A stretch of 64,000 bases of DNA from Owenia fusiformis. Taxonomy: Eukaryota; Annelida; Polychaeta; Sabellida; Oweniidae. This document shows positions 1,721 to 46,206 of this stretch, one piece after another (the first letter of the stretch is position 1; every line of letters starts with the position of its first letter). Location of the stretch: contig CAIIXF020000005.1 in the NCBI GenBank assembly GCA_903813345.2, positions 19,161,375-19,225,374 on the forward strand, read 5' to 3'. The translations under genes were made by a program, and so were the position numbers. The notes under the pieces are model-generated. The model was not told the DNA's origin. It saw only the letters and a list, made by a program, of their open reading frames with translations, and made no database searches.

Positions 1721-4700
1721 GTGAGTCAAGAGTTGATAAAGGATGTGTGATCAGTTTCTACATGTTATCCCAAAACATCATGTGCAGTAAAACCTATACG
1801 GGGAGAATGCTGCTGCATTATTTAAGAAATGATTTAGCCCATTTCCCATATGAGTTTCAAAGTATACGGATTGCTATAATAGCCTTGTCAGGGGTCCAAA
1901 TATCTTAATTCACAGCAATGTTACAGTAATTGTTCACGTCAAATAATCTATTGAAGATTATGCATTCTTGGAATGTGCATGTCACAGCCAAAAAGTCTAA
2001 TAGAGCCACTGATGGCATTTGCATCTGTAACAAGTGTCACATATTTGTAACCATTTGTAGACAGTCTCATATTAATCATTAATGTTGTTCAAATTAGGGA
2101 GGCTGCGATGTTACTCCTGAGGGATACGCACAAATGACCCGGATGTTAATGGGACTAGCCAATGGGAGACTTATTCTTGGATTGGAGGTAATGTTTTTCT
2201 CTTAATTCAATTTTATGCATTTATGGGAAATATTTATAAAAAAGCTAATTAACAGATACTAAGACAAACTATTGTCTGTGTCTATGTCAATAGTCTGCAA
2301 AAGGCTAATAAGCCCATATAAAGCAGATATATAATTTAACAGTGATAAAATTTGAATAGAATATAATTTAAAACCTTAACATGTAAAAATAGATCTACGG
2401 TTTACAACTCATTTTAAAATTGAAAGGAACCATCCTGGTTGGCCCCTGTACCCCCCTTTTTTATTAAAAGTGAAAACTCAATTTCTGGCCTTGAGACTAG
2501 TCATGAATGTAAACAATACTCTAAACATACTCACCTGACATTCCAACACTTTTGGCGGGACTTCATAATGTGTCTGTTGTAGAAGGTTCTGAATATGTAA
2601 AGCCCCCTCTAGATGTCCATATATGTAACCCACATTATATTGCATAGACTCTTTGGCCAATACTCCTGCATTTATGTGTACAATATATTTGAAACAATAT
2701 CATTTTAGTTTCACAAAGAGAGCCCTGCCTCTCTCTTTATTTTGAAATTAAAAATAAGGTAATGCAGAAACTGTAAAATCCTTGTTACTAGAACACGTTT
2801 CTAAAAAATCAAGCCCCATTTGACCTACATGCTAAAGAGCCCTCTCTGTAAGGAACATCTTGAATTGACTGTTTTGGCCAGTATTAAGGTTGTTCCATAC
2901 ACACAGGTTTTACTCTGTGAAAAAGGATATATGTCAAAGGTATTTTAGAAAATCGAATGTGCTGCTTACTCAGAAATACTTCAATAATTAATGCAACCCT
3001 ATTTAGGTATAAACATGACTAAAATACATATTGTATATATTATTCATTTTAGGGTGGCTATAACTTGTCCTCAATATCAGAGTCTATGGCAATGTGTACA
3101 TCTATGCTACTAGGTGACCCATGCCCACCGCTTGAAGAAGAATATGATATAGCTCCACAGTAAGTTGTCTTTATTATCCCATGGTACTACTACTTCCTGG
3201 TGAATAACACCAGGGAGTATTTTTGATATTGAAAAAAAATCATATTGTACTGCCTAGTCCCGTTCACGAAAATCATATTCACCATCCGAGAATTTTTGCT
3301 AAACAAAACTTCCTATTTTGTTCGGTTCGGTTGATATAGCATGCTATAATGATGTTCTTATGAGAGAAATTATATTTAAAATTGGTTTTGTTTGTGTCAA
3401 AGAGAAACAGGTGAAAACTGACATTAAGTCCTTTAAGGTATTGAGGGAGTCTAAGGTTGTGCTTCATTATGAGATTAATGTCCTCAGCAGATTCTTAACT
3501 TTCACTTATTGCTTACAGTTCTACCAAAAATTCAAAAATGTTTGTGTATTGGCATATTTTTTCTTTTTTCAGGGCAACAACCAAAGAAGTTGTAATGGTA
3601 ACCAGGTCACGCTTTACTATATCACCTAACAAGCTTGCTATTCAAGGCTCTGATATTATTTCTTCTTGATATGTTGTTATATTCCAGTGCCGTGAAGTCC
3701 ATTAATAATGTGTTGGACACACACAAAGCTCACTGGCAGAGCTTACAATATAGAGTGCCTCTGTACAATCACAAACAAGATGATGATCCACACAAAGACG
3801 ATGTTACACATAAAGATGATGTTACACATAAAGATGATGTTACACATAAAGATGATGTCGCACAGAATGATGGAGATCTTGACACATTAGCAACTGCATT
3901 ACAGGACATGTCAGGTAAATTCAAATGTCATTCTGTCTTTAAAAAGTGAAACCCAGGAACAATGTATAGTATTCTGTGTTTTAGTGTTTGAGATCCTATT
4001 ATGTTCTGTTTTGTCACACCCTTGGGTGCTATTAGAATTTGATCAGTTTACTGGGTGGATTGGTGGTCATTCCAAGATCTTGTTCATGCATTTCCAGACA
4101 AATAGTTTTAGGGTTGATTTGGAATTCTTATGGATGCTTCTTTTGAGCATGTTGGGTAAATTTAACGGAAGATTTTTTGAATTTGAACTCCTCTTAAATT
4201 CCAGTCATACTTTCTGCACAATGAAACAACATTTTGTTATAATTTTTTGTTGGCAGTTGGTGTTTTGTGTTTGACATCTACAAATAGCATAGGTGACATT
4301 TTGCATGTTAATGCCTCGTTTCTGTATATTGCATGAACACTCATCATATTTGTTTCAACTATAGCCTACTTATTGTTTTTAGTTGCACCTCAAGTTGCAG
4401 TCTGTGATACTAGGGGTGGGGATATACCGCCTGAGGGTGAGAGCTTGGCTTGTGGGGTTGAGGAAGGAGCTTGTGGGGGAAGCGATGCAACTGCAATTAA
4501 TCTAGTCACAGTAAGTACTTGAATTGAGAAATGTCTTCAAACTACTATGTGAGGCTATGTTTAAATTTTTTAATTCACTCATGCTATTATAGTCTGCTTA
4601 TCTCTCACTTGTTGTTGATATCATTGTGCAGCTAGCTAAGAGCCAAATAAGGAACATAATTAGAATATAAAACTGAGATTTTATGATTTATGGTGCAAAA

Positions 4701-7700
4701 TGACCAAAAATTTTATTCTGTTCATTGTTAAAATACCAAAATCATGTAGCGATTGAGTTGAATGGCCAAAATGGAATTTGAGGTCAAATATTTGACATAG
4801 ATCATAAAATCGAGGTCTTTGTTACGATTCTAATATGATAAACAGACAAGAAACACAACTGTTTGCATTTATGAATTTTAGCTGTCATACATACTCCAAT
4901 ATAGACCAGAAAATCAATTGTTCTAGCCATTGTGAGGTCAAATATCATATTAGAATATTTGATAATTGCTGATAATAGGTTCTAGCTTTTTGTGAAAACA
5001 ACTAAAATTTATTTAGTACTTTGCACAGAATTTGCTTGGCTACATTCAATCATAGAGATAAAAGTTCATATTTAGCATATAGTATCAAGAACTGCTACCA
5101 GAGTTTACCAAAAGAGTTCAAAGATTCAGAATGATGAACTACTGGTAGAGGATGAATATTCAGAACTGCTGCTGTTGAATGAAATTCAGAACTGCTGCTG
5201 GAGAATGAAATTCAGAACTGCTGCTTCAGAGGATGAATATTCAGAAATGCTGCCGGAGGATGAATATTCAGAACTGGTGCCGGAGGATGAATATTCAGAA
5301 CTGCTGCTTCAGAGGATGAATATTCAGAAATGCTGCCGGAGGATGAATATTCAGAACTGGTGCCGGAGGATGAATATTCAGAACTGCTGCCAGAGGATGA
5401 ATATTCAGAACTGCTGCCTGGGGATGAATATTCAGAACTGTTTCCAGAGGATGAATATTCAGAACTGCTGCTGGAGGATGAATATTCAGAACTGGTGCCT
5501 GGAGGATAAATATTCAGCAATGTTGTTAGGCCCATATTCAGAACTGCTGCCAGAGAATGAATATTCAGAACTGCTGCCTGAGGATGAGTATCCAGAAATG
5601 CTGCCAGAGGATGAATATTCAGAAATGCTGCCAGAGGATGAATATTCAGAACTTCTGCTGGAGGATGAATATTCAGAAATGCTGCTTGAGGATGAATATT
5701 CAGAAATGCTGCTTGAGGATGAATATTCAGAACTGCTGCCAGAGGATGAATATTCAGAACTTCTGCTGGAGGATGAATATTCAGAAATGCTGCTGGGTGA
5801 TGAATATTCAGAACTGCTGCCAGAGGATGAATATTCAGAACTGCTTTCTGAGGATGAGTATTCAGAACTGCTTTCTGAGGATAAATATTCAGAACTGCTG
5901 CCAGAGGATGAGTATTCAGAACTGCTTTCCGAGGATGAGTATTCAGAACTGCTTTCTGAGGATGAATATTCAGAACTGCTGCCTGAGGATGAATATTCAG
6001 AACTGCTGCCCGAGGATGAATATTCAGAAATGCTGCCAGAGGATGAATATTCAGAACTGCTGCCAGAGGATGAGTATTCAGAACTGCTTTCCGAGAATGA
6101 ATATTCAGAAATGCTGCTTGAAGATGAATATTCAGAACTGCTGCCAGAGGATGAATATTCAGAACTGGTGCTGGAGGGTGAATATTCAGAACTGCTGCCA
6201 GAGGATGAATATTCAGAACTGGTGCCAGAGGATGAATATTCAGAACTGCTGCCAGAGGATGAATATTCAGAACTGCTGCCCGGGGATGAATATTCAGAAA
6301 TGCTGCTGGAGTATGAATATTCAAAACTGCTGCTGTAAGGCGCGTATTTAGAACTGCTGCCGTAGAATGAATATTCAGAACTGCTGCCAGAGGATGAATA
6401 TTCAGAAATGCTGCCGGAGGATGAATATTCAGAACTGCTGCCTGGGGATGAATATTCAGAAATGCTACCAGAGGATGAATATTCAGAACTGCTGCCTGGG
6501 GATGAATATTCAGAAATGCTGCCGGAGGATGAATATTCAGAACTGCTGCTGTAAGGCCCATATTCAGAAATGCTACCAGAGGAAGAATATTCAGAACTGC
6601 TGCTTGAGGATGAATATTCAGAACTGCTGCCAGAGGATGAATATTCAGAAATGCTGCCGGAGGATGAATATTCAGAACTGCTGCCTGGGGATGAATATTC
6701 AGAAATGCTACCAGAGGATGAATATTCAGAACTGCTGCCGGAGGATGAATATTCAGAACTGCTGCTGTAAGGCCCATATTCAGAAATGCTACCAGAGGAT
6801 GAATATTCAGAACTGCTGCTTGAGGATGAATATTCAGAACTGCTGCCAGAGGATGAATATTTAGAAATGCTGCCGGAGGATGAATATTCAGAACTGCTGC
6901 CAGAGGATGAATATTCAGAACTGCTGCCTGGGGATGAATATTCAGAAATGCTGCTGGAGGATGAATATTCAAAACTGCTGCTGTAAGGCCCGTATTCAGA
7001 AATGCTGCCTGAGGATGAAGATTCAGTGCTGCTTGAGGATGAATATTCAGAACTGCTGCCAGAGGATGAATATTCAGAACTGCTGCTTGAGGATGAATAT
7101 TCAGAACTGCTGCCGGAGGATGAATATTCAGAACTGCTCCCAGAGGATGAATATTCAGAAATGCTACCAGAGGATGAATATTCAGAACTGCTGCCTGGGG
7201 ATGAATATTCAGAAATGCTGCTTGAGGATGAATATTCAAAACTGCTGCTGTAAGGCCCGTATTCAGAAATGCTGCCTGAGGATGAAGATTCAGAAATGCT
7301 GCTTGAGGATGAATATTCAGAACTGCTGCCAGAGGATGAATATTCAGAACTGCTGCTTGAGGATGAATATTCAGAACTGCTGCCGGAGGATGAATATTCA
7401 GAACTGCTCCCAGAGGATGAATATTCAGAAATGCTACCAGAGGATGAATATTCAGAACTGCTGCCTGGGGATGAATATTCAGAAATGCTGCTTGAGGATG
7501 AATATTCAAAACTGCTGCTGTAAGGCCCGTATTCAGAAATGCTGCCTGAGGATGAAGATTCAGAAATGCTGCTTGAGGATGAATATTCAGAACTGCTGCC
7601 AGAGGATGAATATTCAGAACTGCTGCTTGAGGATGAATATTCAGAACTGCTGCCGGAGGATGAATATTCAGAACTGCTCCCAGAGGATGAATATTCAGAA

Positions 7701-10700
7701 ATGCTACCAGAGGATGAATATTCAGAACTGCTGCCTGGGGATGAATATTCAGAAATGCTGCTGGAGGATGAATATTCAAAACTGCTGCTGTAAGGCCCGT
7801 ATTCAGAAATGCTGCTTGAGGGTGAATATTCAGAACTGCTGCCAGAGGATGAATATTCAGAACTGCTCCCAGAGGATGAATATTCAGAACTGCTGCCAGA
7901 GGATGAAAATTCAGAACTCGTGCCAGAGGATGAATATTCAGAACTATTGCTGGAGGATGAATATTCAGAACTGCTCCCAGAGGATGAATATTCAGAACTG
8001 CTGTATTCCCAAATAGGGGCTGTGAGGACACTTGTCGCCAGCAGGCATATCACTAATAGTAACTGCATACTTTTGCTGGATTGTCAAACTAAAAAATAAT
8101 AAAAAATAAAAAAGACATGTTATCATTAAACAGTCATTGATCATTATGATCTTATTCTGTCTGCTCATTCAGACAATGGTTCAAATACCACTCAGAGAGT
8201 TTTTCGATTCAGGTAAAATATCATTAAGAGAGTTTATTCATCTAGACAATAGTTCTATTACCATCTTGGGATTTTACCCTTCCGGACAATAGTTCAAATA
8301 TCATTGCGAAAATTTATTCATAATTGGTAAAATTATTTTAATTGTTAATTTTATGCATTCACAAAATGAATTTCTCTATCTGCTATATGATCTTGTTATA
8401 GCTATTTTTTAAAAAATCATGTTCTGTAGGTGATTCTTTTTGTTTGAAATATCAGATTTTTAAGGTGTTTTCTAAGAACAATGCACATGTGTAATCTCAT
8501 TGATATTAAACATATATTTTATTTCACTGTTACTTAATCTCCATGCACATATTTGTTTTTATGTCACCACCAAAAAGTGGTGACAAGTTGTTATGGTCTC
8601 CGTTTTTTGTGGCATCAATTGGCGGTTGGTGGTTGGCGATCACATTTTAGATTTGACCTTCAGTGGCCTTTTCAAGGTCAAAAAAGGTTAAAAAGGGTCA
8701 AAAAGGTCTTTTTTAATTTGCTTCAAAGTGATCAATTTGTTTTTCAAAATCATCTGCAAGTTCTCAAAAGTTCAAATCCGAATATAGATTTGACCTTCAA
8801 TGACATTTACATGGTCAAAAAAGATTTGTCCTTCAGTGACCTTCTCAAGGTCAAAAAGCTCTTGGACTTGTTTCAAATTGACCATTTTTTCAAAATCATC
8901 TACAAGTTATCAGAAGTTCAAATCTGACTTTAAATTTGAGATTTCACCTTCAATGACCTTCTCAGTGTCAAAAAAGGTCTTTTTCAAATTGCTTCAAATT
9001 GACCAATTTTTTTCAAAATCATCTACAGAGTTCTCAGAAATTCAAATCTGACTTAAGATTGAACTAATAATATTGTGATCGAGCAACAAGGTGGTGACAT
9101 TTTGTCATGTTAATAATGCCTTGTATGATCATGTCATGTCATGGCTATTTTTAAAAAATCATCTTTTGTAGGTGATTGAAATTTTTACTGCTTCACCTCA
9201 AGATGTATATTATATTTCACTGTTACTTAATCTACATGCACATATTTGTTTTTGGCTCACACAGTGAGCCTATGGGATCGACCAGGCATCCGTCCGTCCG
9301 TTGGTCCGTTGGTCCGTCCGTCCGTTGGTCCGTCTGTCAACATTGGCTGCACAAATTAAAACTGCTATTCAGATTGAGTCATATCCACAGTCATTTTATG
9401 CATATCCATAATGCCTATTTGACCTATCATCGCCATTTCCCAAGTTCGCCCGGTTTCCGAGAAATTGCTGATTTTGACGTCAAAAAGTCAAATTTTCTGT
9501 AAATACTAGACACTTTGTTGAAGTAGAACTTTCAAATAACTTGTAGTAGTTGCTGTATATGCAACCTATGTCCTCTGAAGATTTCAAAGCTCTTCGAATT
9601 ACAGTTTTTGGTGTTTACTCTATAAAATTTGACAAAACAAAAAGTAGGACTTAGTCATTTTCAGGAAACTTTCTCATTTATAAAGTCAATGGCAGGTTTT
9701 GTGATTGACAAGTTTCTCAAAGTTTGCCTAATACTTGATCATTTCTTGCAATGAATTACATCATAGCTAGATTTAAGCGTTCCCTACATATTGCTTAATA
9801 TATGTCAGCATCAAATTTTTACCGTTTTTGAGATATTCTACGTCAAAAAACAGAAAAAATAAGTTATTTTTCAACTTGCTTCAATTTGACCCAATTTTTT
9901 TTTGAAAAATTTGACCAAATCTTTTTTTGAAAATCATCTAAAAGTTACCAGGAGTTCAAATCTGACATTAGTTTTAGGATTTGACCTTTACTTGACCTTC
10001 AATGACCTTTGAAAGGTCAAAAAAGTTGATTTTTCAAATTGATTTTTGGATGTAAATTTTGGTCAGCTTAATCACAAAAGACCTTACTGAGCTCTAAATA
10101 AGTTAAATTTTCAAGGTCAAAGGTCATCAAACTAGGTCACACAACTGTGCTGTCTAAGTTTCTCAAAGTTAGAGACTTGAAATCCAAATCAATGTTTTTG
10201 TTTGGAAGTCAGGATATACATTCCTCTGAATGTTCCAAACTGTGTGAGCACAAGACCGTGGGTCCTATTTTTACATATTACATTATTACTTCAATGCATT
10301 TATGCTATCTTGGAAACCAATTAATCTTAAACACTTTTATTAATCACCTCCTTATTCAAAATTCAATTTTCAAAAAATAATAATCTTCTTGAGTAATATT
10401 TGGAAACAGATAATCTGAAACATATATTTTTTGTTACTTACCTTCTTAATCTATGTGTATTTGAAAGTTAAGTAGCTGCAAACAACATCTACAATTTGTA
10501 ATTTAACATACATATGTCTATATATACAAACTTCCAAAGCTGAACAAACACATTTATTATGCTCATTCATACTCATAATTTTAGTTTTACATTAATTTTT
10601 CAAAACATATATGAATAGGTAGAATCATATGAATTGTAACTTATAAGTTGATTCCATTAGACTGTAAATCTTTGTAGGAACCTTCAATTAAATAAGACAA

Positions 10701-13700
10701 CAGCCTATATGCATGCACCTGTCAGTTCCATAGTTTGAAAGAACAATCAACGTTTTACTGATCTTAACTTTTCTTTTGTATCAATCATTTCAAATTGGTG
10801 TTTTGTAGTATTCTGAAAATCAACTCAAATGAAACAGATTGGTTTAAGAAATATTATTGTAACAAAAGAAATGAAATAAGACTCAAAGTTAGAGAGCATG
10901 TATTACACTCTTAACACTGTCCATGTGACATTTTATTAATTTGTTCAATATCTTTGGCACAACTTTGAAAAAATTAAGCATGAACATGTAAAAGGCTCTT
11001 ATGTGGCTCTAGCATATGATGATTTGCGGTCACAAATTGCGATTTTGTTAATTTTATATCTTTCTATGACAATTTGGCTAGTGGGCAGCGATTTTGAAAA
11101 ATGGTGGTCATTTTTATATGTGTTATTTTACATTGTTGATATACATGTACAGTAACTGGAAAAGTAATGAATACATACAAGCATATTACAAAATGATAAT
11201 TTGGCTAATTTGCAGCCATTTCAAAATAGCAGCCATGGCCATTTGATGGGATTTGCTATGCATTGGTGTTGCTGTTATCTATTATCTCACATTTGATGGG
11301 ATTTGCTATGTATTGGAGTTTCTGTTATCTATTATCTCACATTTGATGGGATTTGCTATGCATTGGTGTTGCTGTTATCTATTATCTCTCATTTGATGGG
11401 ATTTGCTATGCATTGGAGTTTCTGTTATCTATTATCTCACATTTGATGGGATTTGCTATGCATTGTTGTTGCTGTTATCTATTATCTCACATTTGATGAG
11501 ATTTGCTATGCATTGGTGTTGCTGTTATCTATTATCTCTCATTTGATGGGATTTGCTATGCATTGGAGTTTCTGTTATCTATTATCTCACATTTGATTGG
11601 ATTTGCTATGCATTGTTGTTGCTGTTATCTATTATCTCACATTTGATGGGATTTGCTATGCATTGGTGTAGCTGTTATCTATTATCTTACATTTGATGGG
11701 ATTCGCTATGCATTGGTGTTGTTGTTATCTATTATCTCACATTTGATGGGATTCGCTAATTATTGGTGTTGCTGTTATCTATTATCTCACATTTGATGGG
11801 ATTCGCTATGCATTGGTGTTGCTGTTATCTATTATCTCACATTTGATGGGATTTGCTATGCATTGGTGTTGCTGTTATCTATTATCTCACATTTGATGGG
11901 ATTTGCTATGCATTGGTGTTGCTGTTATCTATTATCTCACATTTGATGGGATTTGCTATGCATTGGTGTTGCTGTTATCTATTATCTCACATTTGATGGG
12001 ATTTGCTATGCATTGGTGTTGCTGTTATCTATTATCTCACATTTGATGGGATTTGCTATGCATTTGTGTTGCTGATATCTATTATCTCACATTTGATGGG
12101 ATTTGCTATGCATTGGTGTTGCTGTTATCTATTATCTCACATTTGATGGGATTTGCTATACATTGGTGTTGCTATTATCTATTATCTCACATTTGATGGG
12201 ATTCGCTATGCATTGGTGTTGTTGTTATCTATTATCTCACATTTGATCGGATTCGCTATATATTGGTGTTGCTGTTATCTATTATCTCACATTTGATGGG
12301 ATTCGCTATGCATTGGTGTTGTTGTTATCTATTATCTCACATTTGATGGGATTCGCTATATATTGGTGTTGCTGTTATCTATTATCTCACATTTGATGGG
12401 ATTCGCTATGCATTGGTGTTGCTGTTATCTATTATCTCACATTTGATGGGATTTGCTATGCATTGGTGTTGCTGTTATCTATTATCTCACATTTGATGGG
12501 ATTTGCTATGCATTGGTGTTGCTGTTATCTATTATCTCATTTTGATGGGATTTGCTATGCATTGGTGTTGCTGTTATCTATTATCTCACATTTGATGGGA
12601 TTTGCTATGCATTGGTGTTGCTGTTATCTATTATCTCACATTTGATGGGATTTGCTATGCATTGGTGTTGCTGTTATCTATTATCTCACATTTGATGGGA
12701 TTTGCTATGCATTGGTGTTGCTGTTATCTATTATCTCACATTTGATGGGATTTGCTATGCATTGGTGTTGCTGTTATCTATTATCTCACATTTGATGGGA
12801 TTTGCTATGCATTGGTGTTGTTGTTATATATTATCTCATATTTGATGGGATTTGCTATGCATTGGTGTTGTTGTTATATATTATCTCATATTTGATGGGA
12901 TTTGCTATGCATTGGTGTTGCTATTATCTATTATCCTACACTTAGTGTACTAAATGTATAATAACATTAAAAAATAAATTTGATATCTATTGGCAAAATG
13001 AATTACCGGAGGATATCGTGATGATATACTCTGGGCGGAGGATATCGTGACGATATACTCCGTAAAACCCAATATGCGGAGGATAGTGTGACGATATACT
13101 CCGCTTGTTAATTTCCCGCTAAATTGACTCTATTTGGCATGAAATTCATTTTGCAATGATATTATACATTTAGTACATTCCTTGTAAGTGTAGGATAATA
13201 AGAACATCCTATGATTTTTTTCAGAATATAATTTTAATCTACTCGGTGATATTGATATTGCACTTGTTCGCTTTGCTCTCTCGTGCAGATATCAATATCA
13301 CCTCGTAGATAAAAATGATATTCCTCAAAATCATAGGATATCCTATAATTATCTCACATTTGATGGAATTTGCTATGCATTGGTGTTGCTGTTATCTATT
13401 ATCTCACATTTGATGGAATCTGCTATGCATTGGTGTTGCTATTATCTATTATCTCACATTTGATGGGATTTGCTATGCATTGGTGTTGCTGTTACCTATT
13501 ATCTCACATTTGATGGGAATTGTTATGCATTGGTGTTGCTGTTATCTATTATCTCACATTTGATGGAATTTGCTATGCATTGGTGTTTCTGTTATCAATT
13601 ATCTCACATTTGATGGGAATTGTTATGCATTGGTGTTGCTATTATCTATTATCTCGCATTTGATGGGAATTGTTATGCATTGGTGTTGCTATTATCTATT

Positions 13701-16700
13701 ATCTCGCATTTGATGGGAATTGTTATGCATTGGTGTTGTTATTATCTATTATCCCAAATTTGATGGGATTTGCTATGTATTGGTGTTGCTATTATCTATT
13801 ATCTCAGATTTGATGGGATTTGCTATGCATTGGTGTTGCTGTTATCTATTATCTCACATTTGATGGGGATTGTTATGCATTGGTGTTGCTATTATCTATT
13901 ATCTCGCATTTGATGGGAATTGTTATGCATTGGTGTTGCTATTATCTATTATCTCGCATTTGATGGGAATTGTTATGCATTGGTGTTGCTATTATCTATT
14001 ATCCCACATTTGATGGGATTTGCTATAAGGTGTTGCTGTTATCTATTATCTCACATTTGATGATGCGAATCTTTTTTATAATTTTACATCAAAATGTATA
14101 CTAGGAATACTAATGGAAACAAATTGTGCACCTCTTTTAGCATACCTTTTTCTATTCTAACGAATTTAAATTTTACAAAGGATAATGAAATATAAACTAA
14201 ATTTTATATTGAGAAGTTATTAAATATTAAGGGCGTTGTACGACCTTGTACTGGCCTTGAAATTACAAGCCTTGTACATGCTTGTATGGGCCTTGGAAAC
14301 AATTATGAGCATCATTCAAGCTCGTATGGGCTTCAAAAACAAGCCGTATGAGCCGGTACGAGGATTGTGCTCCTTTTTGCCCGTAATTCTCGAGGCTCAC
14401 ACGAGCTCATACAGGGCTCGATGTAATTTGCATGTGTAGATATAGAGCCAATATAGCAAGCAGGGCATGCTCAAAATGTTTAGATGTTAAATCAAGACAT
14501 AATATTTTAGTGATGAAATTCCTAGGCCAAGGTTATACAGTACTAAAAGCTGAAGGAACGCTTTATAGGCTCTGCTAAAAAATACAATTTACGAGTAAGT
14601 CATTAATTTTGAAGTTTCAGGTTTTGTCACTTGATATGCTTAGATATGTTGGTATTGTTTAAAGACTGGCACCAAGCTCACAATCTTTTCACTTGGCACA
14701 GTTTTAGGTGGATCCCTTCTATGGCAATAATGGTTTAGAAAAAGGGATCGAAACCAGCCACAGTTTTCTCATGATGACTATTGTGAAATATTGTGTTTTA
14801 TGGATTATGATGACAGCTTTGCAGATGGATGTTGACCCTTTGATATCCTTTTGGACTTCGAGATTGGATTTTGTCCATCCCACATTACATTATTTGAGAC
14901 TGAATGCCATATCTTGTATGTATATTAGTATCTACAACTATTACTTGATGTTTTGAGTGTGGCTATCAATTCTTAATTTATTCTTCAACATGTATTCTAA
15001 TGATTTCAGTATAAATGAAATGTCCTTTGGTGTTATGGTCTTGGATTGTGATAATGGTACTTGTATGGTGTGGGAAGGGGCAATTAGACACTGTTTTTTT
15101 CATATTGAATTGTGATTTGGGATAATTGGGGTTTAATTTCTTTATGACTGGTTTACCCTTAAGCCCCGTTTATGGCCTAGTCACATAGCCCGGCCGATGA
15201 GGTTACGATGAGCCAGCGATGCAATTTTTACCGAACTCGGCCGAACACCGGCCGGACACCGGCCGGATATCCGTGTCGTTTGTTGCTTAAAACCGCATCG
15301 GTGGTAGCTCGATGAAATTTTAACTTCGGAGTTAAATTTCACCGGGCTCTCACCGAGCTCCCTCATCATGTCATCGCAGCCCCATCGTAACCACATCGGA
15401 AAACACGTCGGCCGGTGCACGGCCGAGTATCGGCCGGTGTCCCGTGCATCTGAGACAACCAAAGGACGAGGTTTTTTAACGGACAGCGGCCGAGCTCCGA
15501 CCGAGCTCCGGCCGATGTGGGACAGAGCATCGGCCGGTCACTGTTCAAAGCCCGTTAACAACCCGGCCGGCGATCGCACGGTGTCCTGTTACCTGCTCGG
15601 GTACCGGCCGTATTCCTTCCGATGTCCGGCCGACCTCCGGCCGGTAGTTGCTGCCACATCGGCAGAAAAAAACTACCATTTTGAGACAGACTCCGTACGG
15701 TCACCGGCCGGTGTTCGGTCGGTCGCCTGAAGATGTCCGGACGGAGTCCGTTCACGTCACCGAGCTCTGCTTCCGATGAGGAGAGCTCGGTGGCACCAAA
15801 AAAATCCACCGAGCTCTACCGATGCCGGACATCGGCCGGGCTATGTGACTAGGCCATTACACTGACCGTTGGATTCCAGTAAAGTCCAATGAAGATGGTC
15901 TTTTTGTGAAATGAACTGTTCCATTCTTTCATTTTTTTGTTCAAATTTGATCATGTGATACTTCCATGGTAAGAGGGCTTCATCCATGATGTCACACAAT
16001 CCCTTTTTCTTTTTCTTTCTCTGTTCTGTAACCATGTTTTGTATCTTGTCATTTGCACTTATGCTTACAACAAACTGTCCCAAGGAATGAGCCTACATTA
16101 ATATAGCTCATATTAACTTAGTATCTCCTTTAGAAGAGTTTTCAGTCACACCTTGTACCATGTATTTTATACAAACAAAATTCATTTATGTATGCTTTTC
16201 AAATTATAATTCTTTCATTAATGTCCAAAGTTTACAACAAAACACATTTAAAGCCTGTTGATATCTTCAAATCTGATGTGTAGGTTTCAGATTTAATCAT
16301 CAGATCCTGAGCTGCCAGAACTGGCAGGACCTGGCATACATGGCAGACCTAAAAATGAAGATCTTAAATATAATTCATATGCATTATGAACTCAGATTAT
16401 GTTTACAGTATGAGACACGACATACGGTTTTAGATTATCTTTGTGTCATTGTTTTGATTTTTATTAATCTCTATTGGAGCTGAATGATTGCAGTTTTGCA
16501 TCTGGTCCTTGGGGATGACATACAAAAAAAAGCCGCTAGAGAAATATATTTGATCAAAATGCAGATATTCTTTTGACATGAAGGAATAATTGTCGAGGAT
16601 TTATTAACATACTTTGTGGGATAGCAGCATCCGCTCCACAGATAGCATAGTTCAACATGACCATTCCATATCCGATCTTATGCAAGTCACAATCACGTTC

Positions 16701-22700: not shown

Positions 22701-25696
22701 TTGATTTAAGTTGATGTGAGGTTAATTTTCAAATAAAAATGCAGAAAATGCAATTTCACTCTTTCGATGGAAGTTATTAATTTTACATGTTGAAAGTTTG
22801 ATGAATATTTCCAGATGGATATTTGATTTTATTGCAGGTTCATTGCAGTCGCTATGTGAATGAACACATGGTAAAACATGGCTTGGAGTCGGAACATAGA
22901 GTCGTACTAAGCTATGCAGACCTCTCAGTATGGTGTTACAGCTGTGATAGTTACATCTCAAACCAGGTATGTCCCTTTAACCTCCCTATGGTTGTGTCTC
23001 CAACCAGGTGTGCCCCTTTAAGCTATGGTTGTGTATCAAACCAGGTATGCCACTTCAAGCTATGGTTGTGTCTCAAACCAGGTGTACCCCTTTAAGCTAT
23101 GGTTGTGGCTCAAACTAGGTGTGTCCCTTTAAGCTACAGGTGTATAATTGTGTCTCAAACCAGGTCTGTCCCTTTAAGCTATGCAAAAATATTTACAGGG
23201 CTTATGCAAAAATATTTACAGGGCTTGTCAACTTCAAGTAAAAAAGAGACCTTCAGGAGGGTTAAATCCTAGACAAAATTGAAAAAGAATATGCTTACCA
23301 AATGATATATGCAAAGAGAGTGGAATTAAGCACTACATTTTTAAGTGATCCATATTGATCAGATCAAAACATTTTCCATGTTTTTCTAAACATGGGACAT
23401 ACATGGCTATAGCTATTAGGAGAGAGATCTGGAATGTCCCTTTAAGAATCTAAAATTGTACAAAATCCCAAGATCCACCAGGAGTCATAAGATAATCATA
23501 CAATGATCATACAGGACATGGCTGAGTAGGTTTTCATTTGTTTGGTTGAGAAAAAATCAGGAAGTCATTGGCAACTTTTATTCCCACGATAAAATTCTCT
23601 GGTTGTCTGTGCGACATTTGAAAGTTGGCTGGGCAGTAGAACGAAAATCGGAGCAATGTGACCAAGGCACTGCTGAATGATACCATTCCATTACTGCCTT
23701 GTAATTATTCTTCCTTTAATAGACTAAATCACATAAAAGGTGAAAGTCTTGTGGTGTGTATGTTGTAATTATGATAATGAATATCAGGGTATAAGCCCAG
23801 GGATGCAACTTCATCTTCAAAATGTGTCAACAAATATATTTGTCTAAAAAGCTTGAAAGCTGATATTTAGGTCTCACTCGGTTAATGATGATTTCTGTCA
23901 AATAGTTATCAGATTTTCACTTTGTAAGTATTAACACAAACTTTGATGAACTCTATTTGGAATACAAATTCCTTCCTAAAACAATTTATCCTGCAGAATT
24001 TGTCAGTATGTGACAGTTATTTAATTAGGATGTACATTTTTAGTCAGGGTATTAGTGAGTTCTGCAAAAGAAATCTTTCAACCAAGAAATGAAGTTGAAC
24101 ATTTCTTCGTCTTAAGTCTTCATTAACTTCCTTATTAATAAATGTCACAGTCTGATTTGCTATAGGCACCCAGTTCGCTAAAATAAAGTATTACAAGTCA
24201 CATAATATAAACAGAGGAATTTGGTTTCCAGGTGCCTGGAAACAAATTGTTTATGAAATACTAGATTGTATCCGAATAAACTGAGCTCTTAAGCTTATGA
24301 AAAATATTTGTTATTTGTTTTATCTCTCATAGACTAATAAATCTAAAAATTCCCATTTTCAAAAGTAGTGTTTATGCCGAATTTTTTCAAAACAAGAGAA
24401 ATCACTTTTAGGTGCATATATGCACTGTAGAATCACCTTGCTGAATGCACAGGTATTGGTAGTTGCAAATAATGCTATGAGCAAATATTTTTTAGGTTTA
24501 GCTGAATGAATGAAATCATGATGACATTTTCTATCAATTTACTATTGCAAAAAGCAATTCCCAAAAAGAGATTTTACCAATACAAAATGGTGGTTCAATC
24601 CACATATCAAGAAGAAAAACTCTACATCATAAGCAGACAAGGTATATGATGATACATCAATCTTCCTTTCATTTAGTCTCTCAAAATATATTTGATCTTT
24701 ATAATATTGATCTAAATACAATTAAATTTTGGGCTGATACTTGGCTAAGGAGATTAAGGCACCACAAAAAGTTACATTTTACATAGCCCTTACAATTCTT
24801 GTCCATAAACCTACATTATGTATTCTTTACTTTATTGGGAGATGTCCCCATTCCCAAAGTAGTTTGTCACTAGTCAACTAAACAAGGAATTACAGACAAT
24901 TCTAAATTCATTTTAACAATTCACTTATGTTCTTCGCTCGAATTACTTGGAAACTGTAAAAAATTGTTCCATTTTAAGTGATTATGCAGATGTAATGTGG
25001 ATAAATGTCTATGAAAAGTCCTGGGAGCCTTGAATATAGATAAGTTTTCACGGTTGTCTAATTTTATAAGCATTTTCATTGAATATTGCTTAATCTTTCA
25101 TGACATTGTATCCACTGTTCACCAGTAACCCAACTAAATGATTGATACAATAATTATGAATAATAACTATATATCTGTAAGAAAATCTAGAACTGTGCAG
25201 TTTTTTGATTTACTGGGTAAATTTTAAGATGACCATTTTGGAGTTTTATCTAGCCCAAAATCTTGATAGCCAAGCATGGTAAATTCTAGTTCTATATGAA
25301 AAAAATCACACAATGTTGTTTAGCTCGACTTAATAATGTTTACAAAACACATTGATATTCTTCTCAGGATGCACTATTATTACCCCGTTTCTTGTTTCAA
25401 AAATAAATCCACATTTCCTTAGAATTATTAACACTCTGATGATAATGTGTTATTTAGATTTTTATGTGATGCTGGGAAGCAATTGTGAAAATGTTATTGT
25501 ATAAATATGCTATTGTATTGCATTGATTGTTGAACTTAAAACCCAATGATTTGATAATGGTTTAATAAATAAATGAACAAGGATGGATATGTACAGTAGT
25601 AAATGAGACGGCACCTTTATGCTATCTTTCTACTTGTTCCAGGTTTTGGATCCAGCATTGGAATCAGCCTCCATTAGCAAGTTCGGAGGGGAATAG
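1661..25696 (+). CDS. HDAC6: Histone deacetylase 6, 3' half (end of catalytic domain 2, linker, ZnF-UBP), eight coding exons
   Basis: Class IIb cytoplasmic deacetylase that, in known homologues, acts on tubulin and other proteins and binds free ubiquitin C-termini through a zinc finger. Exons: 1661-1720, 2098-2187, 3053-3159, 3688-3914, 4383-4510, 22152-22307, 22838-22966, 25643-25696. All junctions are GT-AG and phase-consistent and give 316 residues plus TAG. Residues 1-85 match the end of catalytic domain 2, with the zinc-ligand Asp in [10 protein letters not shown] and the catalytic Tyr in EGGYNL. Residues 86-204 are a poorly conserved linker containing four HKDDVT/A repeats. Residues 205-316 are the ZnF-UBP domain with WCPH, CLEC, NWVCLQC, HCSRY and VWCYSC, so zinc and ubiquitin contacts appear intact. 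The protein ends KFGGE, slightly shorter than the human form. Upstream exons lie outside the window. The 17.6-kb fifth intron contains two opposite-strand genes. An extra linker exon inside it cannot be excluded. Confidence 0.93.
2098..2187 (+). CDS. HDAC6: HDAC6 exon: [10 protein letters not shown] to LILGLE
   Basis: Thirty codons, phase 0 at both ends, acceptor aaattag and donor gtaatg. It resembles the GGC-V-PEGY segment of class II deacetylases. Confidence 0.94.
2188..3052 (+). other. HDAC6 intron without recognised features
   Basis: I see only unique AT-rich sequence and no supported gene or repeat. Confidence 0.6.
3053..3159 (+). CDS. HDAC6: HDAC6 exon: [11 protein letters not shown] to YDIAP
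   Basis: Acceptor cattttag and a perfect gtaagt donor. It carries the GGYNL catalytic Tyr motif and the LLGDP segment. It ends in phase 2, and the split codon is completed as His by the next exon. Confidence 0.94.
3688..3914 (+). CDS. HDAC6: HDAC6 exon: end of catalytic domain 2 and start of linker
   Basis: It encodes [19 protein letters not shown], the terminal helix of catalytic domain 2, then a hydrophilic linker with four HKDDVT/A hexapeptides (3791-3862). Acceptor tattccag, donor gtaaat, ends in phase 1. Confidence 0.88.
3791..3862 (+). repeat. In-frame 18-bp tandem repeat in HDAC6 linker (HKDDVT x4)
   Basis: Four almost identical 18-bp units encode [18 protein letters not shown] and HKDDVA, a charged extension just after catalytic domain 2. 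Confidence 0.9.
4383..4510 (+). CDS. HDAC6: HDAC6 exon: acidic/Gly-rich linker
   Basis: After acceptor ttgttttttag the frame reads [20 protein letters not shown] and continues to NLVT, with a gtaagt donor. Phases match the exons on both sides. It lies between catalytic domain 2 and the zinc finger, a region poorly conserved in HDAC6, so support rests on frame and splice sites. An alternative acceptor at 4399-4400 would shift the phase. Confidence 0.75.
4630..4990 (+). repeat. Dispersed repeat copy 2
   Basis: Same sequence family as 640-880 with about 10-15% visible difference. No coding frame. It lies between the HDAC6 linker exon and the repeat-protein gene. Confidence 0.8.
5008..5013 (-). 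terminator. Candidate polyadenylation signal of the repeat-protein gene
   Basis: AATAAA on the minus strand about 75 bp beyond the last repeat unit; the nearest canonical hexamer I noticed downstream of the stop. Confidence 0.5.
5086..8010 (-). repeat. 27-bp coding tandem array with 270-bp higher-order repeats
   Basis: Units of the type GATGAATATTCAGAACTGCT (plus strand) repeat every 27 bp. Between about 7000 and 7800 ten-unit blocks recur with 267- and 270-bp spacing and near identity, each marked by TGTAAGGCCCGTATTCAG. That marker gives a stop in the plus frame but GPY in the minus frame. Confidence 0.95.
5486..8068 (-). CDS. Secreted nine-residue-repeat protein (SSSEYSSSG repeats), nested in HDAC6 intron
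   Basis: Single long minus-strand frame of 860 residues. It opens with a classic signal peptide, [17 protein letters not shown], followed by PIWEY. The rest is about 90 tandem 27-bp units encoding [18 protein letters not shown] variants, with higher-order blocks marked by [12 protein letters not shown]. Composition is almost only Ser, Glu, Tyr and Gly, with no Cys after the signal peptide. A near-perfect acceptor (T-rich tract then AG at 8089-8090) lies 20 nt before the ATG, implying a non-coding first exon. The frame ends [13 protein letters not shown] because of one extra base at 5500. Repeats continue another 330 bp, partly in another frame. A matching AATAAA is at 5013-5008. The stretch resembles silk-like, mucous, byssal or mineral-matrix proteins only in style; SSE sites fit secretory-pathway serine kinases and EY sites could be sulfated or cross-linked. 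Function is unknown. Confidence 0.8.
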   Translation of the reverse strand: MQLLLVICLLATSVLTAPIWEYSSSEYSSSGSSSEYSSSSNSSEYSSSGTSSEFSSSGSSSEYSSSGSSSEYSSSGSSSEYSPSSSISEYGPYSSSFEYSSSSSISEYSSPGSSSEYSSSGSISEYSSSGSSSEYSSSGSSSEYSSSSSSSEYSSSGSSSEYSSSSSISESSSSGSISEYGPYSSSFEYSSSSSISEYSSPGSSSEYSSSGSISEYSSSGSSSEYSSSGSSSEYSSSSSSSEYSSSGSSSEYSSSSSISESSSSGSISEYGPYSSSFEYSSSSSISEYSSPGSSSEYSSSGSISEYSSSGSSSEYSSSGSSSEYSSSSSSSEYSSSGSSSEYSSSSSTESSSSGSISEYGPYSSSFEYSSSSSISEYSSPGSSSEYSSSGSSSEYSSSGSISKYSSSGSSSEYSSSSSSSEYSSSGSISEYGPYSSSSEYSSSGSSSEYSSSGSISEYSSPGSSSEYSSSGSISEYSSSGSSSEYSSSSSSSEYSSSGSISEYGPYSSSSEYSSSGSISEYSSPGSSSEYSSSGSISEYSSPGSSSEYSSSGSISEYSSSGSSSEYSFYGSSSKYAPYSSSFEYSYSSSISEYSSPGSSSEYSSSGSSSEYSSSGTSSEYSSSGSSSEYSPSSTSSEYSSSGSSSEYSSSSSISEYSFSESSSEYSSSGSSSEYSSSGSISEYSSSGSSSEYSSSGSSSEYSSSESSSEYSSSESSSEYSSSGSSSEYLSSESSSEYSSSESSSEYSSSGSSSEYSSPSSISEYSSSSRSSEYSSSGSSSEYSSSSSISEYSSSSSISEYSSSSRSSEYSSSGSISEYSSSGSISGYSSSGSSSEYSFSGSSSEYGPNNIAEYLSSRHQF
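8089..8090 (-). promoter_or_regulatory. Predicted 3' splice site ahead of the repeat-protein start codon
   Basis: Read on the minus strand, a run of T with a few A (8091-8115) ends in AG, followed by TTTGACAATCCAGCAAAAGT and then ATG. Confidence 0.6.
8100..8552. other. AT-rich spacer with degenerate short repeats
   Basis: Loose repeats of CAATRGTTCAAATAYCA type between 8165 and 8330. Nothing else recognised. Confidence 0.5.
8560..9125. mobile_element. TIR repeat ('ATGTCACCACC' family) copy
   Basis: Starts ATGTCACCACC and ends GGTGGTGACAT near 9102, then TTTTGTCATGTTAATGCC. The inside consists of direct repeats built from TTCAAATCTGACTT, ATTTGACCTTCAATGACC and CTCAAGGTCAAAAAGGTC. The same family occurs at 58551-59165, with relics near 1047-1137, 4287-4322 and 35207-35330. 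Confidence 0.7.
9253..10250. mobile_element. Repeat with CCGTCCGT tract and GGCTCACACAG ends
   Basis: Opens with the palindrome GGCTCACACAGTGAGCC, then a CCGTCCGTTGGTCCGT tract. An inverted CTGTGTGAGC occurs near 10240. An inner segment (9860-10140) shares the ATTTGACCTTCAATGACC motifs with the neighbouring repeat. No intact coding frame. Confidence 0.45.
10442..10495 (-). promoter_or_regulatory. Possible promoter and non-coding first exon of the repeat-protein gene
   Basis: On the minus strand TATATATA (10526-10519) lies about 80 bp before a perfect GTAAGT donor at 10441. This could supply the missing 5'UTR exon 2.35 kb upstream of the acceptor. It is a pattern match only; AT-rich DNA produces such motifs by chance. 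Confidence 0.25.
10980..11240 (+). mobile_element. Helitron-like element remnant flanking the 50-bp satellite
   Basis: Contains GACAATTTGGCTAGTGGGCAG and TTTTGAAAAATGGTGGTCAT, matching the inside of the element at 60880-62165. It runs directly into the first satellite unit, as the element runs into its 3' end. Confidence 0.6.
11229..12934. repeat. 50-bp minisatellite, about 34 copies
   Basis: The unit ATTTGATGGGATTTGCTATG followed by CATTGGTGTTGCTGTTATCT and ATTATCTCAC repeats every 50 bp with few differences. Some units keep ATTCGCTAT. The first part of the unit matches the 3' end of the Helitron-like element at 62120-62160. Confidence 0.97.
12935..13194. mobile_element. Miniature TIR element inserted in the satellite (three internal hairpins)
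   Basis: Inverted ends TCCTACACTTA...AAGTGTAGGA, with ACTAAATGTATAAT inside both, flanked by TA. The centre holds three copies of a palindrome of type GGAGGATATCGTGACGATAT-ACTCC at about 13006-13036, 13035-13062 and 13076-13103. TA flanks suggest a mariner-type element. Confidence 0.8.
13204..13346. mobile_element. Fold-back miniature element (hairpin MITE)
   Basis: Arms of about 58 bp beginning ATCCTATGATTTT and ending GGTGATATTGATAT-GCAC are mirrored around a loop of about 20 nt (TTGTTCGCTTTGCTCTC). A related copy is at 39466-39607. Confidence 0.8.
13352..14064. repeat. 50-bp minisatellite, second block, about 14 copies
   Basis: Same unit as 11229-12934, more diverged (GGGAATTGTTATGC variants). 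The two blocks are separated by the two inserted miniature elements. Confidence 0.95.
14225..14445. repeat. Imperfect inverted-repeat segment
   Basis: Alternating CTCGTATGGGCTT, GCCGTATGAGCC, CTCGAGGCTCAC and CGAGCTCATACAGGGCTCG motifs can pair with each other. No coding support. Confidence 0.45.
14446..15172. other. Intronic sequence without recognised features
   Basis: No supported gene, tandem repeat or TIR pair seen. Confidence 0.5.
15173..15856. mobile_element. GC-rich Harbinger-like non-autonomous DNA transposon
   Basis: Perfect 27-bp inverted ends starting TGGCCTAGTCACATAGCCCG, flanked on both sides by TTA (15170-15172 and 15857-15859). A 3-bp TWA duplication is typical of the PIF/Harbinger superfamily. 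The inside is extremely rich in CGGCCG and CCGAGCTC motifs, unlike the AT-rich surroundings. No transposase frame; short frames inside are composition artefacts. Confidence 0.85.
16293..16348 (-). CDS. Secreted protein last exon
   Basis: Completes the split Ser codon, then [17 protein letters not shown] and TAA. An ATTAAA hexamer overlaps the stop codon; I saw no better poly(A) signal nearby. Confidence 0.75.
16293..19047 (-). CDS. Uncharacterised secreted cysteine-bearing protein, six coding exons, nested in HDAC6 intron
   Basis: Coding exons on the minus strand: 19047-18946, 18376-18229, 17913-17813, 17073-16950, 16732-16613, 16348-16293. All have GT-AG junctions and matching phases, giving 216 residues plus TAA. 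It begins with a signal peptide ([18 protein letters not shown]). The mature part has ten cysteines (50, 78, 98, 115, 129, 151, 162, 173, 190, 202) and ends in a Ser/Gly/Asp tail ([10 protein letters not shown]). Two halves look duplicated: ATQRNCDL...IHC and AAKERDCDL...AIC have the same 17-residue spacing between cysteines. Predicted mostly helical, extracellular or luminal. I do not recognise the family, so function is unknown. Exons are small and not open beyond splice sites, which argues for a real gene. A 5'UTR exon and TATA box lie upstream. Confidence 0.82.
16613..16732 (-). CDS. Secreted protein exon 6
   Basis: [16 protein letters not shown] to GADAAIPQ, acceptor ttctttcag, donor gtatgt. 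It has Cys162, Cys173 and Cys190. Confidence 0.82.
16950..17073 (-). CDS. Secreted protein exon 5
   Basis: [14 protein letters not shown] to CGDMEKSA, acceptor gatttttag, donor gtaggt, ends in phase 1. It has Cys129 and Cys151. Confidence 0.82.
17250..17770. mobile_element. Old mariner-like long-TIR element, diverged copy
   Basis: Matches the elements at 42296-42858 and 43024-43499 (TTTTCCTCATATCTT, CATCAGACTGATAGTC, AGTGCTGTAAC, GGGTTTCCA-TTTTTTGACCA). It lies in an intron of the secreted-protein gene and is clearly more decayed than the later copies. Confidence 0.8.
17813..17913 (-). CDS. Secreted protein exon 4
   Basis: [16 protein letters not shown] to KIHCLN, acceptor gtttcag, donor gtgagc, phase 1 in and phase 0 out. 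It has Cys98 and Cys115. Confidence 0.8.
18229..18376 (-). CDS. Secreted protein exon 3
   Basis: [16 protein letters not shown] to LCNEHAE, acceptor tataag, donor gtaata, ends in phase 1. It has Cys50 and Cys78. Confidence 0.8.
18946..19053 (-). CDS. Secreted protein exon 2: start codon and signal peptide
   Basis: Acceptor catttttcag-type site at 19055-19054, six UTR bases, then ATG at 19047. 34 codons to ISK with donor gtgaat, phase 0. Confidence 0.8.
19168..20004. mobile_element. TIR element in first intron of the secreted-protein gene
   Basis: Left end AAGTCCCCGTCTAAAGTTT and right end AAACTTTAGATGGGGACTT form an inverted pair about 840 bp apart. The inside is AT-rich with no coding frame. 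Confidence 0.65.
20139..20175 (-). promoter_or_regulatory. Predicted non-coding first exon of the secreted-protein gene
   Basis: About 25-30 nt after the TATA box, a short exon would end at a perfect GTAAGT donor (20138-20133 on the minus strand) and splice to the acceptor at 19055-19054. The transcription start is estimated, not seen. Confidence 0.55.
20196..20204 (-). promoter_or_regulatory. TATA box (TATAAAAGG)
   Basis: Minus-strand TATAAAAGG is a canonical core promoter element, correctly spaced to the predicted first exon and donor. Confidence 0.65.
20793..21172. mobile_element. MITE family A ('AGATGCGAGTAG' ends), copy 1
   Basis: Inverted ends AGATGCGAGTAG and CTACTCGCATCT, 380 bp apart. 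Inner landmarks CACCAGGTGGCT, ATATGTCCAGTAAAAGAAAA and ATGGGGAATCTCCCC are shared with four other copies in the window. Confidence 0.88.
21346..21711. mobile_element. MITE family A, copy 2
   Basis: Diverged copy (AGATGCAAGTAG ... CTACTTGTATCT) about 170 bp after copy 1, same orientation. Confidence 0.85.
21712..22151 (+). other. End of the large HDAC6 intron, no feature
   Basis: AT-rich unique sequence up to the polypyrimidine tract and acceptor of the zinc-finger exon. Confidence 0.6.
22152..22307 (+). CDS. HDAC6: HDAC6 exon: ZnF-UBP first half
   Basis: Acceptor ttctcttgtag and donor gtacta bound 52 codons in phase 0. [18 protein letters not shown] and NWVCLQCYQ match the N-terminal half of the HDAC6 ubiquitin-binding zinc finger. 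Confidence 0.95.
22838..22966 (+). CDS. HDAC6: HDAC6 exon: ZnF-UBP second half
   Basis: Forty-three codons in phase 0 ([15 protein letters not shown] to DSYISNQ). It includes the Arg of CSRY and the Trp/Tyr of VWCYSC that contact the ubiquitin tail in known structures. Its donor (aaccag|gtatgt) is the first member of a minisatellite that repeats the donor sequence. Confidence 0.95.
22956..23175 (+). repeat. Roughly 37-bp minisatellite repeating the HDAC6 exon-intron junction
   Basis: The segment TCTCAAACCAGGTATGT spans the true donor (GT at 22967). Variants recur with GT at 23008, 23045, 23082, 23119 and 23164, mostly 37 bp apart and followed by CCCTTTAAGCTATGGTT. The unit includes the last exon codons and the intron start. 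Confidence 0.9.
23176..25642 (+). other. Last HDAC6 coding intron, no recognised gene
   Basis: A short duplication TGCAAAAATATTTACAGGGCT occurs at about 23180-23225. A segment near 23390-23450 (TTAGGAGAGAGAT...CCCTTTAA) recurs near 62685-62750. Otherwise unique AT-rich sequence. Confidence 0.5.
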
Positions 25697-43985: not shown

Positions 43986-44939
43986 AATGTGATTGAGCTA
44001 CAAGAAGTGAGTTTATGAAAAAAGATGAGTCATCATAATAGAATAAAAATAGATAAATAAGAAATATTGATTGAGAAATCCCAGAACCAATGCTTTGAAA
44101 GATTGGATGTAAAGTTCATACTGGTGAAGCCTCTACATTTCAATGTTCCTACCACATGCATTTCTTCATTAATCCACCTGGATTTTAAATGCATTGAAAA
44201 ATCCTTTTGGTAATACATGTAAAATAAAAAAATGTTGGTTTAATAAAGCTGTCAAGCTTGTATCAATAAATTACATTGCCTTCATCTCATAAAGTGGTGT
44301 ACTAATAGCTTCTATGTAAATAATATAATTCCATGGTTAATGCCCTGTGTTCATATGCAGGTATGGTAACAGTGTATGGAAATTAGTTCATCCTTATATT
44401 GAAAGTTATAGTCCGGATGTGAAGTGCCATATTTTAAGTGAAGGTGGAAATGCTTATTATATGAACTTTTTTTGCATTTTCTGTTTAAACATGATATCCA
44501 TAATCAGAAACTGTCGGATGCCCAACGGGCATCCTTGAGGATTTTTTTGGCGGCCATTTTGAATTTTCACACGTTTTATGTATTTTAGCCAGCATATTAG
44601 AACAGAAAACTAGCATACACATAAACAAATCTTGCTGTTTTTTCTATAATAGAGTTTTAATATGATGTTTACCAATATGTTTGGTTCCAGAAATGTTTCT
44701 TGACAAAAATAAAAAAAATTCAAGATGCCCGCCAACCTTACAATTTATTAAATGTCTCATTCTTGGATAATATCAAATTGATATTAGTGTTTTCTACAAA
44801 ATTATCAATAAATAATACTAAATACATCTGATTATGATCTCTTTCTCACATATAAAATATCTGAAATGAGTAAAAAGTAACCTACATAATAATAATGATG
44901 TTCCACAAGGGTCATATCTTGGTGCTATATATCTTGAAT

Positions 44940-46206
44940 TTATGAATAATCTTCTTTTACTAAGATTTCATTAAGGATTTTCCTCAATAAATCCTCATCA
45001 GTTTCTTCCAATTCCTGTTCAGTTACTGTCTTTGTATGTTGGTTATTGCATTCATTCCCCTTGCAAACACAGAACAATGTACATGATAAAGATGCCCTGG
45101 AGCATGAACATCGCCCAGTTCCACATACATTGCCCTCTGATGCACATGTGCACTTAATGAGCTGGAGAATTCCTTCAGGGGCACAGGGCATGTCCTTGGG
45201 CATTGTTGTTGGGAGCCCGTGCTGTTAATTTCCCAACCATAATCCGTTGTAGGGATAAGTGGGGGGTCAACAAATTCTGTTGAAGTTTTCTCAACTTCAG
45301 TCATGTCTGCATTGACATCTCCCAAGTTAGCGAGTGAGTATCTATTAAACACCTTCAGGACTGTTAGCTTGCCAATTCCATGCATGCAAGATGTCGTATC
45401 ACTGCCAGAGAGACCATGCGCAGCTAACAAGTTTGGTATTTTTAATTTGTGTTCATTTACGGTTGCATTAATGTTAAAGTTTGCTCGGCCAGATGATGTT
45501 CCCTCCATTATGATGCTATTTTCCATTAACTTGTGCTTGAGACAGTGATGAAGAAGTAGAAGGAAAACATCAGAATCATCACTGAGTACACTGATATTCT
45601 GTATGCCTTTACTGGCAGCATGTAGAACCTGGTGCACAATAACAACATCTGCTTCTTCTTGAGTGGTCCTTAAGTCATCACGTTGGTCAATATTGCCTTT
45701 GTGAATTTGTACAGGTGTTGGATCAGGACCTGTGATAACAAGGATGTTGGAGAATGATCCTTCACTAGCTTTTTGAGCAAGATGGTCGATGAAACACTTT
45801 ATCAACTGGACCTTGTTCTCAGTCACATTCAGAACAACATTATGTACAGGGAGAGGTGTGTCAGAGCTGAACTTATGCACTCTACTGGCTGATTGCACTC
45901 GAGATGACCTGGTGCTGTTCTTTATGCTATTGTCTTTATATCTGTCAAAGATACATCTGATTCGGTTAGGAGTCTCAGGATGTACTTAGTGAAAGCAATA
46001 CAGAAGTTTTCAATTTTGCCAGCCATCGACCATGTTATGATCCAAAGGATGGCACACCCATCAACGACACGTACATTGCAATTGTTTTCTCTTGAGGTCA
46101 CCTCAATCTGTAACTTTTGTTTCAGTGTTGATTTTGAAGTTGTGATATTAATTTTTCCATTTTCATCAAATAGTGATGATGGAGGGAACATCATCTGGCC
46201 GGGCAA
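44940..46206 (-). pseudogene. Transposon-borne PIN-like plus CXC-domain protein, frameshifted (copy 1)
   Basis: The reading order on the minus strand is a start region (46206-45922), a large central frame (45023-45898 and a little upstream), then a C-terminal frame (45203-44940). The central part has SDDSDVFLLLLHHCL and HGLSGSDTTS, acidic motifs seen in PIN/FEN-like nuclease folds. The C-terminal frame has CTCASEGNVCGTGRCSCS and further CxC pairs, typical of a Tesmin/TSO1-type CXC DNA-binding domain. At least two frame breaks interrupt it: one near 45955, another near 45215 where 7 bp present in the inverted copy are missing. About 200 bp of coding sequence found in the right arm is also absent. 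I know this combination from uncharacterised repetitive genes of aquatic animals; the transposon superfamily is not certain. Confidence 0.7.

Follow-up and report, generated by a model that had tools for sequence, protein, structure and literature searches.

An antisense serine–glutamate–tyrosine repeat frame within HDAC6 of Owenia fusiformis as a candidate gene for a secreted phosphorylated polyanion

We analysed a 64-kb window of the genome of the annelid Owenia fusiformis, comprising positions 19161375–19225374 of contig CAIIXF020000005.1 (C5) in an assembly of 498 Mb and 525 contigs. Coordinates are positions in this window unless a contig is named. The minus strand carries, at 8068..5486, an open reading frame (ORF) of 860 amino acids (aa) plus stop, in which a hydrophobic leader is followed by PIWEY and Ser-rich units, with ~94 nine-residue units of the SSSEYSSSG type after the leader. 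A preliminary description of this DNA had reported a signal-peptide ORF of about 90 such repeats on the opposite strand of an HDAC6 intron, and both the frame and its setting were recovered. Deacetylase matches lie on the plus strand upstream of the window (C5:19112580–19148286), a probable plus-strand exon continues catalytic domain 2 (all three Protein Data Bank (PDB) matches are to HDAC6, and weak, E 1.1–1.4), and a zf-UBP match lies beyond the repeats. These matches support a position of the repeat array antisense inside HDAC6, between the catalytic-domain and zf-UBP exons; the intron is placed approximately, by the flanking matches at 3688–3914 and 22835–22966.

Two other repeats were seen in the same gene. 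An 18-bp repeat of 4.6 copies (3777–3858) lies within the probable HDAC6 exon, where it extends catalytic domain 2 by HKDDVT repeats. A second large minisatellite (11240–14062; 50 bp, 56 copies) lies between HDAC6 exons; its period is not a multiple of three, and its longest frame among those listed has 82 codons.

The antisense array consists of 106 copies of a 27-bp unit according to Tandem Repeats Finder (TRF). Cyclic alignment of 5136–8008 placed seven indels; the aligned bases are 90.6% identical to the consensus. Within the ORF (94 anchors), 90 of the 93 unit spacings are 27 nt and the other three 15, 24 and 24 nt, the 15-nt spacing at the array start being a multiple of three as well. 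The 90 units of 27 nt take 38 distinct forms. Successive GPY-type units (GPY, APY or GPN) are separated by 90, 90, 89, 72, 72, 72 and 270 aa. A 1-base difference was found between the first two adjacent 270-bp blocks, and the next two block comparisons gave 26 and 43 mismatches, inflated by a 3-base deletion that shifts the register. Both indels placed before 5503 are 3-base deletions (7026 and 5533). A 1-base insertion near 5502 then leads to the TGA stop, beyond which the array extends for ~350 bp with four frame-breaking indels (5309, 5226, 5209 and 5183) that form two like pairs.

The single-copy flank is more telling than the repeat and suggests that the frame belongs to a gene. Upstream of the ATG at 8068, a T-rich tract with TAG at 8091–8089 forms a predicted splice acceptor with 17 of 20 pyrimidines, a score equalled or exceeded by 0.18% of the 1695 YAG sites on the minus strand; the strong acceptor 20 nt before the ATG that had been described is thus present. 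An in-frame TGA at 8086–8084 makes this ATG the first in-frame start of exon 2. A consensus donor, AAG/GTAAGT at 10442/10441 (AAGGTAAGT at 10444), lies 2.35 kb upstream and is one of two MAGGTAAGT occurrences on the minus strand of the window, and a TATA-like TATATATA lies 84 bases upstream of the donor. Together, donor, acceptor and TATA-like box lead to a simple two-exon model (Table 1).

We compared this start with all ATGs followed by 30 open codons on both strands of the window (n = 659). The leader at 8068 has the highest hydrophobic peak of the set, and a signal peptide is predicted by a crude rule, by this hydropathy rank and by a modelled leader helix. The leader of the described 17-residue signal peptide stands, with an uncertain cleavage site (Pro follows A17, and the first site that the crude rule accepts lies after residue 11). 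Of the 659 ATGs, 20 have signal-like leaders and nine have, within 60 nt, an acceptor with 16/20 pyrimidines or more; the ATG at 8068 alone has both. This joint result is suggestive, not decisive, because the thresholds were chosen after the case had been seen and independence of the two criteria would give 20 × 9 / 659 = 0.27 such ATGs in the window.

Table 1 Features of the locus, in window coordinates
Feature	Position	Strand	Basis or remark
Probable HDAC6 exon: last part of catalytic domain 2 and HKDDVT repeats	3688..3914	+	Weak PDB match
Candidate polyadenylation signal AATAAA	5008..5013	-	One of 143 AWTAAA on the strand; weak alone
Whole 27-bp array, 106 copies	5136..8003	-	TRF
Array tail past the stop; would be 3′ untranslated region	5136..5485	-	Frame-breaking indels
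Stop codon TGA	5486..5488	-	Follows 1-base insertion near 5502
Predicted body of the repeat protein, 843 aa following residue 17, with GPY-type units	5489..8017	-	Composition, unit alignment
Leader, signal-peptide-like, 17 residues	8018..8068	-	Hydropathy peak, AlphaFold2 helix
5′ untranslated part of exon 2	8069..8088	-	After predicted acceptor; in-frame TGA 8086–8084
Candidate intron 1	8089..10441	-	Donor and acceptor
Candidate non-coding exon 1	10442..10497	-	Ends at donor AAG/GTAAGT; start inferred
TATA-like box TATATATA	10519..10526	-	One of 33 TATAWAWR on the minus strand; weak alone
HDAC6 zf-UBP match	22835..22966	+	Pfam E 2.5e-12; PDB HDAC6 E 1.7e-17

Like this chance expectation, several properties of the array weigh against a coding function. 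Openness of the SSSEY frame carries little weight, because a stop-free 27-bp unit stays open by construction, and a second minus frame is also open, over 945 codons. We rejected frame openness as coding evidence: minus frame 1 is open too, with 0.0 stop-making single changes of the consensus expected. The absence of stop variants from the SSSEY frame is weakly informative (1.5 types expected, 0 seen, P = 0.15). We further scored synonymous changes among 31 variant types relative to the consensus over the 38 distinct 27-nt units, leaving out columns 7–18 of GPY units and the three off-length spacings. In favour of coding, 12 of the 31 types are synonymous in the SSSEY frame, where 7.9 would be expected (P = 0.026), compared with five in the second open minus frame (9.9 expected). 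An excess is found as well on the plus strand, in the ELLPEDEYS frame with its shared wobble base (13 of 31 versus 8.4 expected, P = 0.0098), and in a stop-carrying minus frame (9 versus 5.3 expected, P = 0.019). Because three of the six frames show it, a frame whose unit holds a stop among them, the excess was rejected as proof of coding and shows neither strand nor coding. Codon-position rates past the stop run in the same order, somewhat weaker (0.052, 0.079, 0.086 versus 0.072, 0.087, 0.128). By definition the frame runs up to the first indel that breaks it, near 5502; the edges of an array may decay in any case, and the two like pairs in the tail may reflect two independent events. Searching the assembly with leader plus repeat (E ≤ 10) returned at least 23 matches, 22 at this locus and one, weak and with stops, on contig C1; apart from the latter, no leader paralogue was among the matches listed.

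Much of this evidence would also be expected of a non-coding minisatellite in the intron whose frame is open by chance, or of a dead gene, with an accidental leader: the period keeps frames open, the second minus frame included, and the synonymous excess spreads over three frames. Another large minisatellite (50 bp × 56 copies at 11240–14062) lies nearby, and one pair of neighbouring 270-bp blocks, differing at 1 base, indicates that the array is partly recent and holds few independent variants. We nevertheless consider this explanation unlikely, as it leaves to chance the joint occurrence of leader and acceptor, the donor, and the lack of any frame-breaking indel before 5503.

In a further reading, the array is a plus-strand HDAC6 exon whose acidic ELLPEDEYS repeats would sit between the second catalytic domain and the zinc finger and would compare with the SE14 repeats in human HDAC6. 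Gene position and strand are right for such an exon, the neighbouring HDAC6 exon has HKDDVT repeats of its own, the ELLPEDEYS frame shows the strongest excess of all, and a donor-like GTAAG adjoins seven of the eight stops in that frame. Those eight stops (6336–7791), the frame-breaking indels from 5502 down, and a best plus-strand acceptor of 12/20 pyrimidines at 4900–8100, where the 99th percentile of the window is 15, make it very improbable; no open plus frame with splice sites crosses the array.

If translated, the SSSEY frame would yield an extremely acidic chain. After residue 17, Ser makes up 503 of 843 residues (59.7%), followed by Tyr (99; 12%), Glu (96; 11%) and Gly (65); Asp is absent, Thr (0.5%) and Pro (2.4%) are rare, and there are five Lys plus Arg, giving a net charge of −91 and a pI of ~4. 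Runs of three Ser occur 98 times, and the longest run is seven. An AlphaFold2 model of residues 1–200 contains a helix at 2–15 and no other element; its predicted local distance difference test (pLDDT) score is 85 in the opening ten-residue block, 74 in the next and 38–49 in the later ones. This fits a leader plus disorder, as far as a single-sequence model, which is weak evidence, can indicate.

The repeat is rich in potential sites for Fam20-type secretory kinases. By column counts, the GAA codon is kept in 87 of 90 units, and Glu adjoins Ser in nearly every unit. S-x-E had been described for every unit; we found 66 sites for 96 Glu. Of these Glu, 53 stand in SSSE and 27 in SISE, and S-x-S-x-E occurs 17 times. 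The assembly contains 12 Fam20C-family matches over cut-off at several loci, and such matches are expected of an animal. Reported targets of FAM20C are S-x-E/pS and also poly-Ser (PMC12621633, PMC4275877). Tyr in the usual unit has one acidic neighbour, so of the acidic-flanked Tyr described before, one flank remains and sulfation is weakly supported.

Two counts argue against extensive phosphorylation: S-x-E is missing at 30 of the 96 Glu, mostly through Ser-to-Ile (the 27 SISE), and simple S-x-pS priming would reach 92 of the 503 Ser. The same leader and predicted disorder would suit a secreted repeat protein that is not a phosphoprotein, its serines O-glycosylated or unmodified, acting as a mucin-like or lubricating polyanion, and the missing S-x-E sites are in line with it. 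Low Thr and Pro set the chain apart from typical mucin domains, and Glu beside Ser in nearly every unit favours acidophilic kinases; we hold this reading to be rather unlikely.

On balance, we favour a genuine gene, nested antisense in an HDAC6 intron and encoding a secreted, phosphorylated, disordered polyanion, a reading to which we give an even chance. A short non-coding exon 1 would be spliced to the single coding exon, whose product would carry a signal peptide ahead of an intrinsically disordered polyanionic chain of ~94 units. In the secretory pathway, Fam20-type kinases may prime Ser at the 66 S-x-E sites, with further serines phosphorylated from there. The chain could then be stored with Ca/Mg, released, and set through ionic bridging and perhaps Tyr cross-linking, within a glue, a tube lining, mucus or a secretion that binds mineral. 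The sequence itself shows the frame, the leader, the acceptor, the composition of the repeat and the HDAC6 setting; exon 1, expression and its tissue, secretion, phosphorylation, cation bridging and cross-linking are inferred. By analogy with known secretions, a Ca/Mg-bridged polyanion in glue, tube or mucus appears the most likely role. The phosphorylated, Tyr-bearing matrix or adhesive protein proposed in the preliminary description is partly supported: our best reading is likewise a spliced gene whose product is a secreted repeat protein, and the proposed role is plausible.

More tentatively, and with the odds against it, the locus might encode a secretory biopolymer of annelids that belongs to no class described so far, a Ser-Glu-Tyr polyanion of strict period. 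One chain would combine kinase-primed phosphoserine clusters with Tyr beside Glu in nearly every unit, with a GPY unit marking a block mostly every 72–90 residues; its origin would be a minisatellite in an HDAC6 intron that acquired a leader and a splice acceptor on the antisense strand. If expressed, the SSSEY frame would give a genetically encoded polymer whose ~94 Ser/Glu/Tyr units resemble one another, and with it a ready template for underwater glues that respond to Ca. It would also be a clear example of a structural, secreted protein encoded in an intron of an unrelated gene, on the other strand.

Elsewhere in the assembly, the linker domain of giant haemoglobins (PF16915), an annelid family, has three matches over cut-off, which cluster at C6:27033687–27048438 on both strands. 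They make an annelid likely; the mollusc setting implied by tissues named earlier (mantle, foot) is not supported. The mollusc haemocyanin beta-sandwich domain gave no match in the assembly, nor did its positive controls, which leaves this negative with little weight, and COX1 gave no match in the assembly either. Forkhead gave 38 matches on nine numbered contigs, with tandem clusters of four (C8:13951116–13967262) and three (C10:20683397–20703742). In Owenia, Forkhead genes are reported from nine of the 12 chromosomes, two of which bear foxQ2 in tandem, under chromosome numbers that differ from the contigs here (PMC9539403). Within the window, 44920–47507 and 48136–50723 form a direct duplication at an offset of 3216 bp, with 11 differences in 2588 bp (99.6% identity). 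The first copy contains a 320-aa frame without Pfam match (E ≤ 1), which recurs in the second copy, and a 79-base exact inverted match.

The ORF itself had no Pfam and no PDB match (E ≤ 1 for each). Strings derived from the repeat were not found in open PubMed Central (PMC) text, and no adhesive, tube, caddis or annelid repeat of this kind was named in the titles or abstract starts of the papers found. An invented poly-Ser/Tyr query gave no match in the assembly; being made up, it carries no weight. The view that no named family has this repeat is in line with these searches. Among known systems, the (pSX)n motifs of caddisfly H-fibroin share repeated Ser clusters and nearby Glu with the frame, and Ca-phosphate bridging by these motifs has been proposed from several lines of evidence (PMC4929942). 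The alternating (SX)4–5 pattern with aliphatic or Arg X is absent here, where S-x-S-x-E (17), SSSE (53) and SISE (27) occur instead, no strand was predicted from the single sequence, and H-fibroin is an insect silk. Dentin phosphophoryn and similar proteins are FAM20C substrates in biomineral matrices and, as predicted here, are S-x-E-bearing, secreted, disordered and polyanionic. The frame carries the S-x-E motif at 66 of 96 Glu in a predicted secreted protein; unlike phosphophoryn-type substrates it has no Asp and many Tyr, and the likeness is one of motif and predicted properties.

Closest are the SY-rich cement phosphoproteins of sabellariid tubeworms, Pc-3A/B and Sa-3A/B/C, whose run pattern, Ser runs punctuated by Tyr, recurs here (99 Tyr, 98 runs of three Ser). 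A signal peptide (predicted here), Ser/Tyr-rich low complexity and extreme acidity are common to both, a likeness of described features and not of aligned sequence. Glu in nearly every unit and a strict nine-residue period distinguish the present frame, as does its length (860 aa versus 216–405 aa for Sa-3A/B/C). Pc-3 has 72.9 mol% Ser (PMC12621633), compared with 59.7% here; this lies below our own cut-off of ~70 mol% or more, taken from Pc-3, and because of it we do not file the frame as a Pc-3/Sa-3 member. These proteins are a close functional precedent, and Sa-3 is produced in cement cells that also express FAM20C candidates (PMC12621633). The repeat protein may work like Pc-3 and, if expressed, would extend Pc-3-like chemistry to another repeat grammar, in which Glu supplies a constant charge and a kinase site.

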